This document shows positions 6,854 to 27,771 of a stretch of DNA of 33,021 bases, piece after piece. This stretch comes from a virus. The stretch is taken from IMG/VR virus record IMGVR_UViG_3300025889_000508, positions 1-33,021 of that record. One strand, 5' to 3'. Position numbers and translations under genes: made by a program. The notes under the pieces were generated by a model. That model was not told the origin of the DNA and made no database searches. It saw nothing but the letters and a program-made list of their open reading frames with translations. Numbering within the stretch: the stretch's first letter is position 1; each line of letters begins with the position of its first letter.

Positions 6854-7501
6854 ATGCCAGTACAAATTGAACATGAAGGTGTGACCAAGACTTTTTACAC
6901 GCAAGAAGAAGTAGATGCGGAAGTGAAGGGCCTGAAAGTAACAAACGAAAACCTAAAAAGCGAAAAGGCCGAGCTAAAGGCTAAAGCCGATGAAGCAGCT
7001 GAGCAAGTGCGCAATGCTCAAGAAGAAGCAGCAAAGGCAGCAGGCGATAAAGAAGCGTTAGAGCGTATTCATGCAGAACGTGAAGCGGAAGCAAAAGCGC
7101 GCATGAATGAGCTAACCGGCAGTATTAAAACCGAGAAGATCAACAACGCCATTAATGACCTAGTTACTGAATTAGGTGCAGGCGGCGCGAAGAACGAAGA
7201 CTTACGCGATTTGGTTAAGTCTCGTTTTAGTATTGATTACGACCTCGATTCGCATGAATTAAAAGTATCTGGCAGCGGCGCAAGTTCGCTGGATGAACTA
7301 AAGAAAACCATTAAAGAAAGCGGTCGCTATGATGCTTTCCTAGCTGGTACAGGTTCCACGGGCGGGCGCTCGACTGGTTCCACAAGCACGGGCGCTGCTA
7401 CTAAGAAATTTAACGAATATACCTCTGCTGAGTTAGTGCAAATTAAGCGCGAAAGCCCAGAAGAATATGAACGACTACGAAGCACAGCTTCCCACTTGTA
7501 A
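6854..7501 (+). CDS. Capsid scaffolding protein
   Basis: 215 residues. Scaffold proteins guide major capsid assembly and then leave or are degraded. Residues about 15-95 are a highly charged coiled coil (Glu/Lys/Ala rich), followed by a helical region, a Gly/Ser/Thr-rich linker (about 165-183) and a short basic/acidic helical end (NEYTSAELVQIKRESPEEY) of the kind that contacts capsid subunits. Its place between portal and major capsid genes supports the call. No protease domain is visible in it or beside it. It resembles GP20-type phage scaffold proteins. Confidence 0.85.
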   Translation: MPVQIEHEGVTKTFYTQEEVDAEVKGLKVTNENLKSEKAELKAKADEAAEQVRNAQEEAAKAAGDKEALERIHAEREAEAKARMNELTGSIKTEKINNAINDLVTELGAGGAKNEDLRDLVKSRFSIDYDLDSHELKVSGSGASSLDELKKTIKESGRYDAFLAGTGSTGGRSTGSTSTGAATKKFNEYTSAELVQIKRESPEEYERLRSTASHL

Positions 7502-7514
7502 GGAAAATTAAAAC

Positions 7515-8525
7515 ATGGCCACTACTCAATTAGCCGACATTATCGACGTAACAGTATTTCAAGACTTACCTGCTGTAAACTCTCCTGAGCTAACAGCATT
7601 CTATCAATCTGGTGTTGTTGTTCGCACGCCTTTACTTGACGCGCTAGCAAACGCAGCCGGTAAAAAAGCAGAATTACCATTCTGGAATGACATTGACGCT
7701 GCTATCGAAGCTAACTTAACCAGCGACGATCCTGCTGAAGTTGCAGCAGCACAGAAGCTAACCCAAGCAGAGCAGGTAAGCCGCAAAGCTTTCTTAAACA
7801 AAGGTTTATCTGCGTCTGACCTAGCTGCTGAGTTAGCCATGGGTGAAAATGCGATGACTCACATTCGCAACCGTGTTGATACCTACTGGATGCGCCAGTG
7901 GCAGCGTCGTTTGATTGCTTCTTGTGACGGTATCCTAGCGGATAACGTGGCGAATGATTCTGGTGATATGGTTGTTGATGTTGCTTCTGAGTCTATTGCC
8001 GGTCAATCTGTTGCTACCAAGTTTAGCCGTTCTAACTTCACCGCAGCTGCGTTCACTTTGGGCGATGCTTTCACAAATACTGGTGCGATTGCTGTGCACT
8101 CTCAAGTGTATAAGCAAATGGTTGACGCGGACGACATTGATTTTATCCCTGATTCACAAGGTCAAATGACTATCCCTACTTACATGGGTAAGCGTGTAAT
8201 TGTTGATGATGGCATGACCGTAACAGCTGGCTCAACTGACGGCTTCAAATATACTACTGTATTATTTGGCGCTGGTGCATTTGGTTACGGCGAAGGCATG
8301 CCGGAATACCCAGTTGAACTAGAGCGTGCTGAATCAGGTGGCAACGGTGGCGGTATCTCTACCTTATGGACTCGTAAAACTCAAATCTTGCACCCATTCG
8401 GTTTTGAATCAACTGGCACACCAACTGGTGACTCTTTCAGCATTGCTGAATTGAAGCTAGCCACTAGCTGGAACCGTGTTGTAGACCGTAAGCTTGTACC
8501 ATTAGCGTTCTTAGTAACTAACTAA
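7515..8525 (+). CDS. Major capsid protein (gp13-like)
   Basis: 336 residues, expected to have the HK97 fold and form the icosahedral shell. It matches the Gp13-like major capsid family in its features: an N-terminal TQLADIIDVTVFQD arm, a helix around residues 105-140 (GENAMTHIRNRVDTYWMRQWQRRLIA, the long spine helix), HSQVYKQMV, and MTIPTYMGKRVIVDDGM. Length is normal and no obvious propeptide is seen. The codons look well adapted and the gene is followed by a very stable hairpin, both as expected for the most abundant product. AAGGAAAATTAAAAC precedes the ATG. Confidence 0.95.
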   Translation: MATTQLADIIDVTVFQDLPAVNSPELTAFYQSGVVVRTPLLDALANAAGKKAELPFWNDIDAAIEANLTSDDPAEVAAAQKLTQAEQVSRKAFLNKGLSASDLAAELAMGENAMTHIRNRVDTYWMRQWQRRLIASCDGILADNVANDSGDMVVDVASESIAGQSVATKFSRSNFTAAAFTLGDAFTNTGAIAVHSQVYKQMVDADDIDFIPDSQGQMTIPTYMGKRVIVDDGMTVTAGSTDGFKYTTVLFGAGAFGYGEGMPEYPVELERAESGGNGGGISTLWTRKTQILHPFGFESTGTPTGDSFSIAELKLATSWNRVVDRKLVPLAFLVTN

Positions 8526-9891: not shown

Positions 9892-10320
9892 ATGGCACTA
9901 ATCGGATACGTAGAAGAAACAGACTTCACAGCATACGCAGCAGCACGTGGCATTACACTGGCAAAAGCTGAGGCGGTGACGCTAACGCTTGCGCTTGACT
10001 ATATTGAGGCTCAGACGTACAAGGGAACAAAAACTGACGAAGCACAGGTATTAGCATTCCCCCGCGATGGCAGCACAGAAATACCGCAAGGTATCAAAAA
10101 TGCCCAAATGGAAGCGGCTTTGATTTACGATCGAGGCGAAGACCCATTAAGTGACGTTGGTCAAAGAGTGACGCAAGAAACTGTATTTGGTGCTGTTTCA
10201 GTGTCATACTCAGACACAGGAAACCAAGCGACTATATACCGCAAGCTCAATGCTATGCTAGCGCCATATTTAGCTAGTGGCGGTTATGGTTCGAGCAACT
10301 TCACTGTATCACATGGGTAA
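9892..10320 (+). CDS. Head-tail connector / adaptor protein (DnaT-like family)
   Basis: 142 residues. It resembles the family labelled putative DnaT-like ssDNA-binding protein in databases, which in phage head operons is the HK97 gp6-type adaptor that docks under the portal. Features are a helix-rich core (ALTLALDYIEAQTYKG, FPRDG...EIPQGIKNAQMEAALIY) and a C-terminal QATIYRKLNAMLAPYL helix. Position after the head genes and before the head-closure gene supports the adaptor role over any DNA-replication role. Confidence 0.8.
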   Translation: MALIGYVEETDFTAYAAARGITLAKAEAVTLTLALDYIEAQTYKGTKTDEAQVLAFPRDGSTEIPQGIKNAQMEAALIYDRGEDPLSDVGQRVTQETVFGAVSVSYSDTGNQATIYRKLNAMLAPYLASGGYGSSNFTVSHG

Positions 10321-10326
10321 ATAGCT

Positions 10327-10794
10327 ATGACCACCATCGTCTATGATCACAAGCGCGGGCAGATTGCCTGTGATAGCCGTTTAACTAAAGGGAGTATGAT
10401 CACGACGGATGGCGCACAAAAGTGGATGAAGACAGAGAATGGCATAATCTTTATGGCTGGGTGCCGCGCTGACTTCGAGATGCTATCTGCGTTGACGGTT
10501 GATTATAGTCATGGCGATGTGGTCGAGACTGAGTTCGAATTGCAGTGCGAGGGCATACTTGTCAAGGATGATCATGTTTATCTTATTAGCATTCAGGATG
10601 GCGGGCAGTTCTGGATGGAGCCACTAGACGAAGCTGTGGCTGCAACTGGTTCAGGTAGTGAATGGGCAATAGCAGCAATAGACCACGGCAAGACCGCAAA
10701 ACAGGCGGTTGAGTACGCAGCGACACGCGACATTTACACCGGCGGCAAGGTTCGCGTTTACGATATTAAAAAAGGCAAATTCATAAATGGCTGA
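10327..10794 (+). CDS. HslV/proteasome-beta-like Ntn-hydrolase
   Basis: 155 residues. After Met removal the chain begins Thr-Thr-Ile-Val, exactly as in HslV, where Thr1 is the nucleophile of this N-terminal-nucleophile peptidase. Counting from that Thr, ACDSR places Asp15 and GAQKW places Lys31 where HslV and proteasome beta subunits have Asp17 and Lys33. ATGSGSEWAIAAI near residue 106 matches the GSG(G)xxA(L/I)AA loop. No propeptide is present. The product could be a multimeric peptidase. Its place between the adaptor and head-closure genes suggests a role in head assembly or protein clearance at assembly. Family call strong, role unknown. Confidence 0.85.
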   Translation: MTTIVYDHKRGQIACDSRLTKGSMITTDGAQKWMKTENGIIFMAGCRADFEMLSALTVDYSHGDVVETEFELQCEGILVKDDHVYLISIQDGGQFWMEPLDEAVAATGSGSEWAIAAIDHGKTAKQAVEYAATRDIYTGGKVRVYDIKKGKFING

Positions 10795-11134
10795 TTTTTA
10801 TCCACGAATGACGGCAACGGCTAGCAAGCTGATGGCCAAATTTAAGCAGGGTGTTATTGAATATGTGCCGCTAGTAGCTGGCGCGACTGAGTACGACCCA
10901 ATGACAGAAGGCACGCCAATTTCGTTGGATGCAACGGCAAGCGGTGTTGCGAAAGAATACGTTGATGATTTGGTCGGTGCTTCGGATACTCAGGTTACGA
11001 GCGCTGTGTTTGGCACCACACCTAATATGCAGGGCCGGATAACTATTGATGGTGTTAGTCGTGAGATTATCCGAATCAAGCAAATGCCGGCGGCTGGTGA
11101 TCCTGTTGCGTGGGTGATATTTGTTAAGGGGTAG
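10787..11134 (+). CDS. Head closure (head-tail joining) protein
   Basis: 115 residues. It begins MADFYPRMTATASKLMAKFKQGV, typical of small neck stopper proteins, followed by a beta-barrel-like body (SGVAKEYVDDLVGASDTQVTSAVFG ... GRITIDGVSREIIRIKQMPAAGDPVAWVIFVKG) like SPP1 gp16/HK97 gp7-type head-closure rings. It overlaps the Ntn-hydrolase gene by eight bases. It would form the ring that stops DNA leak and accepts the tail. Confidence 0.75.
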   Translation: MADFYPRMTATASKLMAKFKQGVIEYVPLVAGATEYDPMTEGTPISLDATASGVAKEYVDDLVGASDTQVTSAVFGTTPNMQGRITIDGVSREIIRIKQMPAAGDPVAWVIFVKG

Positions 11135-11162
11135 TTGCAATAGCGCTAAACTGATGTATATT
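11135..11162 (+). promoter_or_regulatory. Predicted promoter of moron-like gene
   Basis: TTGCAA (11135-11140) and TATATT (11157-11162) are spaced by 16 bp, the -10 being preceded directly by TG. It lies immediately after the head-closure stop and feeds only the next small gene, which ends in its own terminator. Confidence 0.55.
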
Positions 11163-11191
11163 AAAGTGGAGTTTAATTAAAGGAGCAAGTA

Positions 11192-11458
11192 ATGAATAAG
11201 CTAGAAGCATTAAAGCGTAACCTAAAAAAAATAAAAGAACCAAAACCAAGCAATACTGGTGTATTCACATATAAATCAGGACTCAAGTGCTGGTTTCCTT
11301 ACTCGGACAAGGATGATTACATCAAAAAAATGGCCGAGTTGGCAGGAAAAGAGATGCAAATGGAGAGGGATAAAAGGGAATTCTTAAAAAACGACATAGC
11401 AAGGCTAGAATTAATGTTAAATCCGTTCAAGCTTATTAAGTCCTTGTTTAGCAAATAG
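11192..11458 (+). CDS. Moron-like hypothetical protein
   Basis: 88 residues, Lys-rich, with an amphipathic helical stretch (KKMAELAGKEMQMERDKREFLKNDIARLELM, about residues 46-76) and a hydrophobic-basic end. The gene is visibly more AT-rich than its structural neighbours, has a strong AAAGGAG ribosome site, its own promoter and a terminator directly behind it. This is the classic form of a moron, an extra gene inserted into a late operon. It splits the head-closure gene from the Mu-F-like gene. No family is recognised; a host-directed function is likely but unproven. Confidence 0.7.
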   Translation: MNKLEALKRNLKKIKEPKPSNTGVFTYKSGLKCWFPYSDKDDYIKKMAELAGKEMQMERDKREFLKNDIARLELMLNPFKLIKSLFSK

Positions 11459-11475
11459 CCCACACCGATCATTCT

Positions 11476-11484
11476 TGTTATAAT
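11476..11484 (+). promoter_or_regulatory. Extended -10 promoter overlapping a terminator
   Basis: TGTTATAAT, a perfect extended -10, lies 31 bases before the ATG of the Mu-F-like gene and abuts the terminator hairpin. Transcription starting about seven bases downstream (near 11491) would begin in the hairpin loop and lack its 5' arm. Confidence 0.6.
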
Positions 11485-11506
11485 CCCCTCAATCGAGGGG
11501 TTTTTT
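11485..11506 (+). terminator. Intrinsic terminator abutting the next start codon
   Basis: CCCCTC (11485-11490), loop AATC, GAGGGG (11495-11500) and six T residues (11501-11506) form a textbook terminator for the moron-like gene. The ATG of the next gene follows at 11507 with no other ribosome site, so GAGGGG, the 3' arm, must also serve as its Shine-Dalgarno. Confidence 0.8.
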
Positions 11507-12544
11507 ATGCCTATTAATCTAGACCTAATTGCACAACAAAAAGAACGCGACATGTTACGCGCTTTTGCTTCGTCTGTGTCCGATATAAAAAACAGCGTGA
11601 CGCTTAAAGAGCTAGAGGCCGCAATAGAACGCCAAGACAGTGATGCTGTTGTGCGTTTGCTGGGTATCGACAGGGCGGCTTTTGAGCAGGTAGACGATGA
11701 AATATACCAAGCCTACAGAATAGGCGGCTTAACAGGCGTTGAGCAGATAGGGCGCATACCTACTGAGCTAGGCAGTGTCGGCTTTCGTTTTGATATGGCC
11801 GCGCCTAGTGCTATCGAGTGGATACGCAGCGAGTCTAGCCAGTTTCTAACAGAGGTTGTTGATGACCAAGTGGAAATGATTAAGCAGCAATTACAGCTAG
11901 GCTTAGAACTTGGTGACAATCCACGCACCACGGCTATCGAACTAGTTGGCCGATATAATCCAGCAACAGGCAAGCGGGCGGGCGGCACAGTTGGATTAAC
12001 CACGCAGCAGGCAGGATGGGTGAATAAGGCCCGCAATGAGCTACTAGAATTAGACCGCAACTACTTCACTCGTGAACTGCGAGACAAGCGCTACGACTCA
12101 ATCGTTCGCAAAGCCATTGAAGACGGCAAGCCACTAACCAAGGCTCAGATTGATAATGCTATCACGCAAATGCAAAGCAAGGCGTTAAAATACAGAGGCG
12201 ATGTTATCGCACGCACTGAGTCCATTAATGCGCTGAGAGCTGGCCAATTCCAAGCTGTTGAGCAGGCCATAGCCAAAGGTGAACTAGATTCACAGGATGC
12301 ACGGAAGTCATGGGACGCTACAGGCGACAAACGAACGCGCCTAGACCACTTTCAAATGGAGGCCAATTACAAGGATGGCATTCCAATCGAGGAGGCGTAC
12401 ACTTTTCCTGATGGCAGCAAGGCAATGCACCCAGGTGATAACAGTCTAGGTGCACCAGGTAAGCAGTTAATCCAATGCCGATGCCGCAACGTAGTCACAA
12501 TAGATTTTATTGGCCGTCAGGTCAGAATGGAGGGGTTTAAATGA
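11507..12544 (+). CDS. Phage head morphogenesis protein (Mu F / SPP1 gp7-like)
   Basis: 345 residues. The C-terminal domain shows the Mu-F signatures IARTES (234-239), KSWDATGDKRTRLDH (267-281), AMHPGD (306-311) and the terminal CRCRN (324-328), where Cys residues probably bind metal. Such minor head proteins bind the portal, a few copies per virion, and are needed for infectivity. They usually follow the portal gene directly; here the gene comes after the adaptor and head-closure genes. The only SD is GAGGGG within the upstream terminator. It overlaps the next gene by four bases. Confidence 0.9.
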   Translation: MPINLDLIAQQKERDMLRAFASSVSDIKNSVTLKELEAAIERQDSDAVVRLLGIDRAAFEQVDDEIYQAYRIGGLTGVEQIGRIPTELGSVGFRFDMAAPSAIEWIRSESSQFLTEVVDDQVEMIKQQLQLGLELGDNPRTTAIELVGRYNPATGKRAGGTVGLTTQQAGWVNKARNELLELDRNYFTRELRDKRYDSIVRKAIEDGKPLTKAQIDNAITQMQSKALKYRGDVIARTESINALRAGQFQAVEQAIAKGELDSQDARKSWDATGDKRTRLDHFQMEANYKDGIPIEEAYTFPDGSKAMHPGDNSLGAPGKQLIQCRCRNVVTIDFIGRQVRMEGFK

Positions 12545-24419: not shown

Positions 24420-24872
24420 ATGGAACTACATTTAAAACGAATAGGCGGGAATGACGATACCACTATTGGGGCGCTGTATATTGGCGATGGAGTAAGCAAA
24501 TACCTATTTAGCTTCACTATCGAAGATGAGCGACGATTTAATAAGGTATCAGGAGATACGCGCATCCCAGCCGGTCACTATAAGATTGAGCTAAACCACT
24601 GCGGCGGCATGAATAAGAAATACGAGAAATACCCATGGCACCAAGGTATGTTAGAATTGCAGGAGGTGCCGGATTTTGAGTATATTTATATTCACCCTGG
24701 CAATGACGACGACGATACGGAAGGCTGCATTTTGCCTAACTACAAAGCCGATTTAGGCGGTATGCGCGGTGAAAACAGCTTTGAATGCTACAAAGACCTA
24801 TATTTGGAAGTTGTAGCAGCAATGAAAGACGACGAAGACGTTTATATCACAATCACAGACGAGGAATTCTAA
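24420..24872 (+). CDS. DUF5675 protein, candidate endolysin
   Basis: 150 residues, soluble, no signal peptide. It fits the DUF5675 family of phage lysis regions. TRIPAGHYKI (48-55), YIYIHPGN (His92) and DDTEGCIL (Cys103) resemble the TPxGxF, HG and SHGC elements of L,D-transpeptidase (YkuD-type) folds. A cysteine-based activity on peptidoglycan peptides is therefore plausible. It directly precedes the holin gene (TAATG overlap), and no other lysozyme, amidase or peptidase is visible in the window. The enzymatic role is inference; family placement is fairly sure. Confidence 0.7.
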   Translation: MELHLKRIGGNDDTTIGALYIGDGVSKYLFSFTIEDERRFNKVSGDTRIPAGHYKIELNHCGGMNKKYEKYPWHQGMLELQEVPDFEYIYIHPGNDDDDTEGCILPNYKADLGGMRGENSFECYKDLYLEVVAAMKDDEDVYITITDEEF

Positions 24873-26221: not shown

Positions 26222-26304
26222 TTCAATCTCTCCAACTCTTCACGCGTCATCTTCACGCCGTTAATGTAATACGCCCATATGCCGGTTATGCGGGTTGCTT
26301 TCAT
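26218..26304 (-). CDS. Tiny 28-residue ORF in ATGA chain
   Basis: Encodes MKATRITGIWAYYINGVKMT followed by REELERLK. It overlaps the glycosyltransferase stop by four bases and its own stop overlaps the next ATG by four bases. It has no separate ribosome site, so translation would depend on re-initiation. Perfect coupling on both sides and a sensible composition favour a real gene; no function is known. Confidence 0.5.
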   Translation of the reverse strand: MKATRITGIWAYYINGVKMTREELERLK

Positions 26305-27467
26305 AATTTAACTAACTCCATAGAATAGTCATTATCATTCTTTATGTTATGTCCATTTAGTTTTATCAGCTTGTTATTCTTAAATGGCCTGTAGTCAACG
26401 TGATGGTGCCACCTATTAAACCTCCACACAACACTAGCAACGTCTGGATGTAGATCAGCAAGCATCTTAGATTTTGGTAGCGTACCCTCCTTACTGTAAA
26501 ACTCCTTAGTGTTTCCTCCTTTCATTCTTTGAGTGGTTACTTTCCCACACAGGAATGCGTTAAACTGGATCGTACACAATCCGTCTTTTAATACTCGAAG
26601 TGATAAGTCAGTGTCCTCATTGTAACGACCTCTCCACCTATACCCTGAATTATTATCAATCAATAAGCATGAGTAGATTCTAGTATTTAAAATAAATGGT
26701 GGAACTTTGTCAGTTTTCTTACAAAAAGAATAATAATTTAACCCAGCAACAGGCACGTTTGAATATCTATCGACAAAATCCTCTGCTGCGAGCAATGTGG
26801 CTCCTGTTTCCACCTCGTATTTTTCGTTATTAGTTAGGCGATGAAACGCATCTAAATTGTCATCCATCACCCAATGTCGATCAAAACCCATGGTGAGCGA
26901 GTGGTCTAAGCAGAAATTACGCGCAGCACCTGGGCCTTTGCTTCTAGAATTGCCGATATTATCACAAGTGTCATAATCATCTAAGTAACCTTGAGGCAAA
27001 ATTAGTATCTTTGCACTTGTGTTTTTTTTGTACTGATCATATTCACTACGCTCAACTACAATATAATGATCGACACCCATCTTATTAAGCGCTTTTGTTG
27101 TAAGGCCGTTGTTGGCACGACCTTTTGACACAATGTAAACCGGATATCTAGGTGAGACCTTTTCTTTTGTTCTCCATCTTAGTTTTTCAAGTCCCCAGTG
27201 GGACTTGTACGGAAACCAAATAGATTTTGTTTTCTTTGTTATCTTCTGTTTTGCGGCTTTTGCTAGATCCTCTCTATTATTAAAATAGAAATCTTTGCCA
27301 TCATAATACTGGCCAAATCCACAATTTTTAAAATCATCTTCTTTATCAAACCTAATAAAAAGGTGGGTTCCATCATTTTCTATAAGAACCTTGCACTTCT
27401 TAAAAGGCTCTTTCTTCTCCTGCTTAAATTCAGGCATTCCAACCCAGTGTTTGGTGTAGTCGCTCAT
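26301..27467 (-). CDS. TET-associated-glycosyltransferase-like protein (TAGT)
   Basis: 388 residues from ATG 27467 (a TTG three codons upstream is weaker and overlaps the neighbour). The core RYPVYIVSKGRANNGLTTKAL (107-127), HYIVVERSEYDQY, GPGAARNF (178-185), WVMDDN (199-204, a DxD-like metal/nucleotide-sugar site) and RGRYNEDTDLSLRVL (279-293) fits the glycosyltransferase-A-type TAGT family. In phages these enzymes are thought to add sugars to modified pyrimidines in DNA. An N-terminal extension of about 100 residues is extra. No TET/JBP oxygenase or hydroxymethyl-nucleotide synthase lies in the window. The gene is visibly AT-richer than the head genes. Confidence 0.75.
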   Translation of the reverse strand: MSDYTKHWVGMPEFKQEKKEPFKKCKVLIENDGTHLFIRFDKEDDFKNCGFGQYYDGKDFYFNNREDLAKAAKQKITKKTKSIWFPYKSHWGLEKLRWRTKEKVSPRYPVYIVSKGRANNGLTTKALNKMGVDHYIVVERSEYDQYKKNTSAKILILPQGYLDDYDTCDNIGNSRSKGPGAARNFCLDHSLTMGFDRHWVMDDNLDAFHRLTNNEKYEVETGATLLAAEDFVDRYSNVPVAGLNYYSFCKKTDKVPPFILNTRIYSCLLIDNNSGYRWRGRYNEDTDLSLRVLKDGLCTIQFNAFLCGKVTTQRMKGGNTKEFYSKEGTLPKSKMLADLHPDVASVVWRFNRWHHHVDYRPFKNNKLIKLNGHNIKNDNDYSMELVKL

Positions 27468-27468
27468 A

Positions 27469-27771
27469 TTATCCAAACCTATTAAAAGTTACTGACTTGC
27501 CATAATCATTAGGCGGCAATGCGATGTTTTCGCGAGTCGTGCGCGCTTTTGGCTTCTCTCGCAACTGGGCAGACATGAAAGCAGCTTTCAAGTCCGTGTC
27601 GTTGCATGGCGTTTGCATAATCACACGACCGGTGCCAACTAAGCCAAATCCTGCAAGCTCTTTTCCACAATGGATAACTTGGACTGTATAGCTAGGCTCA
27701 GTTAAGCGGTGTTCTGCCTGTAGCGCTTGTGAGAAGTCGCTCAGGTGCATTGTTAGGGTTAGTGGTTTCAT
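27469..27771 (-). CDS. Hypothetical protein upstream of glycosyltransferase
   Basis: 100 residues, soluble, mixed alpha/beta, with CGKELAGFGLVGTGRVIMQTPCNDTDLKAAFMSAQLREKPK in the centre. It has an ATGA overlap with the HTH gene upstream and one base between its stop and the glycosyltransferase ATG, so the three are one transcript. Not recognised. Confidence 0.65.
   Translation of the reverse strand: MKPLTLTMHLSDFSQALQAEHRLTEPSYTVQVIHCGKELAGFGLVGTGRVIMQTPCNDTDLKAAFMSAQLREKPKARTTRENIALPPNDYGKSVTFNRFG

Follow-up and report, generated by a model that had tools for sequence, protein, structure and literature searches.

A PPH-family N-terminal-threonine peptidase gene in the neck operon of a tailed phage: an empty site in a sister phage and alleles with a swapped substrate-binding segment

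We analysed a peptidase gene of the PPH family that lies among the neck genes of a tailed-phage fragment, a 33,021-base IMG/VR record (hereafter the window, meaning this whole stretch). In our reading, to which we assign a probability of roughly 0.6, the protein is an accessory, moron-like peptidase that acts in the infected cell and is not a capsid maturase. The gene itself belongs to a family that was already described; what our data add are two alternative slots within the neck, a sister phage in which the site is naturally empty, and alleles in which the substrate-binding segment is swapped and the catalytic ends are kept. The novelty lies in the evidence for dispensability and in the swapped specificity segment. 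Capsid maturation is the most natural guess from the locus, and as this role has become unlikely, the search for a function is narrowed. A pair of related phages, one of which lacks the gene, and two alleles that differ mainly in the substrate-binding segment provide material for finding the substrates.

Results

The window carries, in this order, terminase, portal, scaffold, major capsid protein (MCP), the adaptor Ad1, the PPH gene, Hc1, a Mu-F-like gene, Neck1 and the tail terminator (Table 1). The PPH reading frame is exactly as first read, with an ATG start and a product that begins MTTIVYDHKRGQIACDSRL. It starts 6 nt downstream of the Ad1 stop, and its 3' end overlaps Hc1 by 8 nt. Because the gene is embedded in the neck operon, it is presumably expressed together with the neck genes, that is, late, in the window phage. 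The earlier note on this DNA had seen no prohead protease between the portal and capsid genes, and we found only the scaffold (PHROG 206) there. It had also seen no HslU-like ATPase nearby; in agreement with this, an HslU/AAA+ partner gene was not found in the window record, which may be a fragment (0 matches, with all 14 controls positive).

Table 1. Features of the PPH gene and its neighbours in the window
Feature	Position	Strand	Evidence or conservation among 54 relatives
PPH-family N-terminal-threonine peptidase, 155 aa	10327..10794	+	PHROG 1040, PF00227, AF2 model, PDB 20S beta5
Thr1 codon, predicted nucleophile after Met removal	10330..10332	+	Thr 54/54
Asp17-equivalent codon	10372..10374	+	Asp 53/54, Glu 1/54
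Central substrate-binding segment, codons about 21-107, swapped in L009/L010	10387..10647	+	nt identity by block
Lys33-equivalent codon	10420..10422	+	Lys 52/54; in the other two, Lys one or two positions off
Gly-Ser-Gly, Ser129-loop equivalent	10648..10656	+	G 54/54, S 48/54, G 54/54
Asp-Ile-Tyr-Thr-Gly-Gly, Asp166/Ser169 equivalents, proteasome-beta type	10729..10746	+	D 51/54; T/S 54/54; GG 54/54
Head scaffolding protein	6854..7501	+	PHROG 206 E 4.2e-25
Major capsid protein	7515..8525	+	PHROG 247 E 3.8e-100
Head-tail adaptor Ad1, left edge of PPH slot	9892..10320	+	PHROG 477 E 2.6e-30
Head closure Hc1, right edge of PPH slot	10787..11134	+	PHROG 161 E 4.5e-11
Mu-F-like head morphogenesis protein	11507..12544	+	PHROG 3517 E 3.3e-97

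The junction between Hc1 and the Mu-F-like gene (window 11135-11506) is another variable cargo slot. It holds an 88-aa orphan in the window, and in record L052 it is occupied by a 133-aa PHROG 7702 gene and a 73-aa ORF; in L053 no such gene is present.

The relationship of the window protein to the proteasome and HslV is far beyond chance. The PHROG 1040 profile ("peptidase HslV family") covers residues 1-151 (E 1.9e-32), and the protein scores over the curated cut-off of Pfam PF00227 (Proteasome). Its scores with the NCBIfam HslV models, 21.1 and 19.2 bits, are far below the cut-offs of 137 and 157.75, and an archaeal proteasome-beta model outranks these models by E-value. A profile of 31 relatives matched proteasome beta5/beta5i over positions 2-149 (E 1e-12), and HslV only over the first 110-127 positions (E 3e-11 to 5e-9). 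The AlphaFold2 monomer (pLDDT 92.3, pTM 0.87) has a confident proteasome-beta fold, for which the best PDB matches found by Foldseek were 20S beta5 chains (E about 3.5e-9, probability 1.0). The first reading as an HslV/proteasome-like peptidase is thus supported by PHROG 1040, PF00227 and Foldseek. In sequence and fold the protein is somewhat nearer to proteasome beta than to HslV, since its RDxYTGG motif, with the Asp166/Ser169 equivalents, is of the proteasome-beta type. With 20S beta subunits (beta5/beta5i) it shares the fold, this motif in the form RDxYxGG and the Thr1/Asp17/Lys33/Ser129/Asp166/Ser-Thr169 set, whereas it is about 50 aa shorter, lacks H2 and H5, has no alpha partner and is only about 20% identical. 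With HslV (ClpQ) it has in common the MTTIV start, the triad, the GSG loop and the absence of a long propeptide, but there is no HslU gene nearby, the RDxYTGG motif is not HslV-like and only 21 of 137 bits are reached.

Fuchs, Alva and Lupas (2021) described the PPH family as proteins of about 140 residues from Caudovirales and their hosts; according to their family description, PPH proteins, like RPC, have no helix H2, no AAA+ protein co-occurs with them, and no function is assigned (PMC8665760). The model of the window protein has helices at 47-59 and, after intervening strands, at 111-119 and 124-134. H2 is absent, and a single helix takes the H1/H2 place, as in PPH. Size, which separates PPH from RPC, points the same way: the protein has 155 aa with no C-terminal extension, and its relatives mostly have 140-165 aa. 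The window gene is a member of the described, functionally uncharacterised PPH family. The protein shares with PPH / PHROG 1040 a length of about 140-155 aa, an MTT N-terminus without propeptide, the conserved triad, the sole H1 where others have H1/H2, the phage origin and, as far as the family description goes, the lack of a co-occurring ATPase; nowhere does it fall outside the family range. Two details of this lineage, the slot between Ad1 and Hc1 and the swap of the central segment, do not appear in that description (PMC8665760). The earlier note knew of no established function for such phage proteins, which is correct, though the family had by then been named and described in that paper.

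The matches to HslV profiles, and the lack of an unfoldase of its own in the window, could mean that the protein docks onto HslU or another AAA+ unfoldase of the host, a plausible supply, and redirects or replaces the host HslV against regulators or defence proteins. We consider this improbable, as the protein is closer to proteasome beta, with RDxYTGG in place of HslV-type residues, and lacks helix H2 like PPH and RPC. Moreover, no AAA+ protein co-occurs in the data of Fuchs et al., whose account of the families lists no HslV for Actinobacteria (PMC8665760); a related protein, of uncertain subfamily, is found in a Microbacterium phage all the same.

The 54 relatives used to assess conservation include tblastn matches from phages, which are free of N-terminal pattern bias; a contig scan with the MTTIVYDH pattern alone as usable query gave no matches. 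Thr1, Asp15 and Lys31 as well as the GSGS loop are all where the earlier note had placed them, and the three residues are conserved (Thr in 54 of the 54 sequences, Asp in 53 with one Glu, Lys in 52). The catalytic Thr1, Asp17, Lys33 and Gly47 correspond to T2, D16, K32 and G45 of the reading frame; Asp and Lys stand two residues ahead of the canonical 17/33 due to a shorter first hairpin. The Gly47 equivalent is kept in 53/54 relatives. The sole Glu at the Asp17 equivalent belongs to Vibrio phage 1.147.O (L048:7001-7441). At each of the positions 20, 35, 45 and 49, the equivalents of the proteasome S1 pocket, many different residues occur among the 54 relatives. Between alleles with 92-99% protein identity, dN was 0.003-0.043 and dS 0.36-1.5; the enzyme is under strong purifying selection. 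Judged from this selection and the residue conservation, the window protein is very probably an active N-terminal-threonine peptidase.

It is very unlikely that the protein is a specific Ntn amidase or a connectase-like protein ligase and not a protease. The superfamily does include connectase, a monomeric ligase according to the description in PMC8665760, and the pocket of the PPH proteins is strongly variable. However, the model is without the S3/S4 helical insertion that this description gives as typical of connectase, and Ser129, Asp166 and Ser169, which as a set characterise beta subunits with proteolytic activity, are conserved.

The strongest evidence on the role of the gene in the virion comes from a sister phage, L161, whose proteins are highly similar to those of the window (terminase 96% identical, portal 88%, Ad1 87%, Hc1 86%, Mu-F-like 81%, Neck1 94%). 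L161 has a natural empty site. Its Ad1 and Hc1 genes are direct neighbours, and where the window has 466 bp containing the PPH gene, L161 has 5 bp; the flanks align at 79-80% on both sides (BLASTN). PPH is absent from the whole 37-kb record and is dispensable in this phage. No protease is found between portal and MCP in L161. Its scaffold (PHROG 206) and MCP (PHROG 247) belong to the same PHROGs as those of the window, but the sequences have diverged, and the pair is not perfectly isogenic. In L161 4647-6302, between a near-identical portal and neck, the scaffold/MCP cassette has been replaced by another one from the same PHROG families, which amounts to a capsid-module swap.

PPH is also absent from nine further records of 35-46 kb, for which completeness is not proven and whose MCPs are 55-83% identical; those inspected contain portal, a Mu-F-like protein or nuclease, scaffold and MCP, and no protease. 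A prohead protease would be needed by the capsid module that it accompanies; in L161 and these nine records, related capsid modules occur without the PPH gene. Conversely, PPH coexists with an annotated head maturation protease in Klebsiella phage (Jedunavirus) VLCpiM12a, where the tail genes are on the other strand, and in Microbacterium phage WaterT. We also considered whether another gene of the head module hides a protease. Among the PHROGs matched by the Mu-F-like genes are some that include a head maturation protease family, but these are weaker matches that reflect the Mu-F domain, not a separate protease domain.

The position of PPH differs widely between phages, and the gene is mobile in position. 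One and the same neck module has two PPH slots, one between Ad1 and Hc1 (the window group) and the other between Mu-F and Neck1 (L093, L094, L162, L165, L166 and L168). The Ad1-PPH-Hc1 order is found again in L065 (PHROG 283) and L067 (PHROG 1328), which have unrelated capsids, and in Vibrio 1.147.O, with a PHROG 247 capsid. Further arrangements are PPH-Mu-F (L058, L075, L077), PPH-TerL-portal (L061), and PPH adjoining Ad3 (L032) or NinG (L056); it also lies near NinG in Shewanella phage 3/49 and Pseudomonas phage AH02. In phiAH14a the gene is upstream of the terminase, in a Jerseyvirus immediately ahead of the holins, in L081 after an exonuclease, and in KPP10/PAK_P3 and ESCO5 within DNA or nucleotide metabolism regions. 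The PAK_P3 protein, gp143, does not belong to the early block gp74-gp112, and its gene shares a region with those for helicase and DprA. At the level of regions, the transcriptome paper on PAK_P3 places the transcription of those with nucleic-acid genes at middle time, so that PPH is probably not a structural-late gene there.

The gene for PHROG 1501 (DUF5675), present at 24420-24872 (+) in the window and directly after PPH in L056, was considered as a partner of PPH. It occurs only in some PPH phages and also in L161, which has no PPH, and it was uncorrelated with PPH across 45 records; we therefore rejected it as a partner.

In many marine lineages with unrelated capsids, PPH stands beside packaging, head or neck genes. 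This adjacency is commoner than we would expect for randomly placed cargo, and a virion-related role is therefore conceivable, in which PPH would process the scaffold, the capsid or a neck protein (Ad1/Hc1). The location within the neck operon, overlapping Hc1, would fit such a morphogenetic protease, as would the recurrence of the slots Ad1-PPH-Hc1, MuF-PPH-Neck1, PPH-MuF-portal and PPH-TerL-portal, and the PPH phages with PHROG 206 or 648 scaffolds that were examined in detail have no other protease beside the capsid gene. We nevertheless regard this role as unlikely. L161 manages without PPH with the same neck (81-94% identical) and the same scaffold/MCP families, relatives with 55-83% identical MCPs have neither PPH nor a protease, and PPH is found in phages that have an annotated head maturation protease, alongside unrelated MCP families, and also within DNA-metabolism regions. 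Like phage prohead proteases, PPH is a phage protease that is encoded among the structural genes of the window phage, but it is of an unrelated enzyme class, and its varied location, its dispensability and its presence beside annotated head proteases argue against such a role. Our literature search for virion proteomics of PPH phages yielded nothing on the PPH protein itself. The earlier suggestion that the enzyme processes scaffold or capsid is not supported: the same scaffold and capsid families occur without the gene, head maturation proteases occur with it, and its location shows no fixed relation to the capsid genes. The other suggestion of the earlier note, that the enzyme degrades host proteins, may hold. 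That PPH is the capsid-maturing enzyme of the window phage is unlikely.

Two further records, L009 (1278-1736) and L010 (4222-4680), carry PPH in the same slot as the window. Compared with the window, their DNA is 84-98% identical over the first 15 codons and over about 30-40 codons at the end, while most blocks at codons about 21-107 show only 13-67% nt identity. This swapped segment takes in the strands that bind substrate, helix H1 and the loop that leads to GSG. The equivalent of position 49 is changed from Arg to Ile, and all catalytic residues are retained. Recombination within the conserved ends would be the simplest cause, and a possible selective reason is the use of different substrates.

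Discussion

Taken as an accessory peptidase of the infected cell, PPH might work as follows. Removal of Met would expose Thr1 as the nucleophile, assisted by the Asp17/Lys33 and Ser129/Asp166/Thr169 equivalents. The protein would assemble by itself into a small complex, perhaps a small ring, without an unfoldase of its own, and could cut proteins that are flexible or unfolded, or a small number of specific ones, independently of ATP. We infer that these substrates are cellular rather than virion proteins. In the window phage, insertion into the neck operon would bring about co-expression with the late genes. The cutting specificity would differ by lineage and could be exchanged when the segment that binds the substrate recombines.

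A bolder form of this idea, which we put forward only tentatively and hold to be rather doubtful, is that the substrate-binding segment is a specificity cassette exchanged between phages, with fixed catalytic ends. The reason would be that its targets, whether host regulators, defence proteins or neck proteins, are not the same in every host. If so, PPH would be a working one-component viral proteasome.

Some relatives are longer (206-294 aa) and partly extended at the C-terminus (L051:6001-6885, L045:6836-7528, L087:7001-7741 and L076:7001-7621). They come from larger-genome phages or contigs and may be RPC-like or other proteasome homologues.

Apart from PPH, the window encodes a TET-associated glycosyltransferase at 26301-27476 (-) (Pfam TAGT E 4.5e-51; PHROG 842), which suggests that the DNA of this phage is glycosylated and hypermodified.
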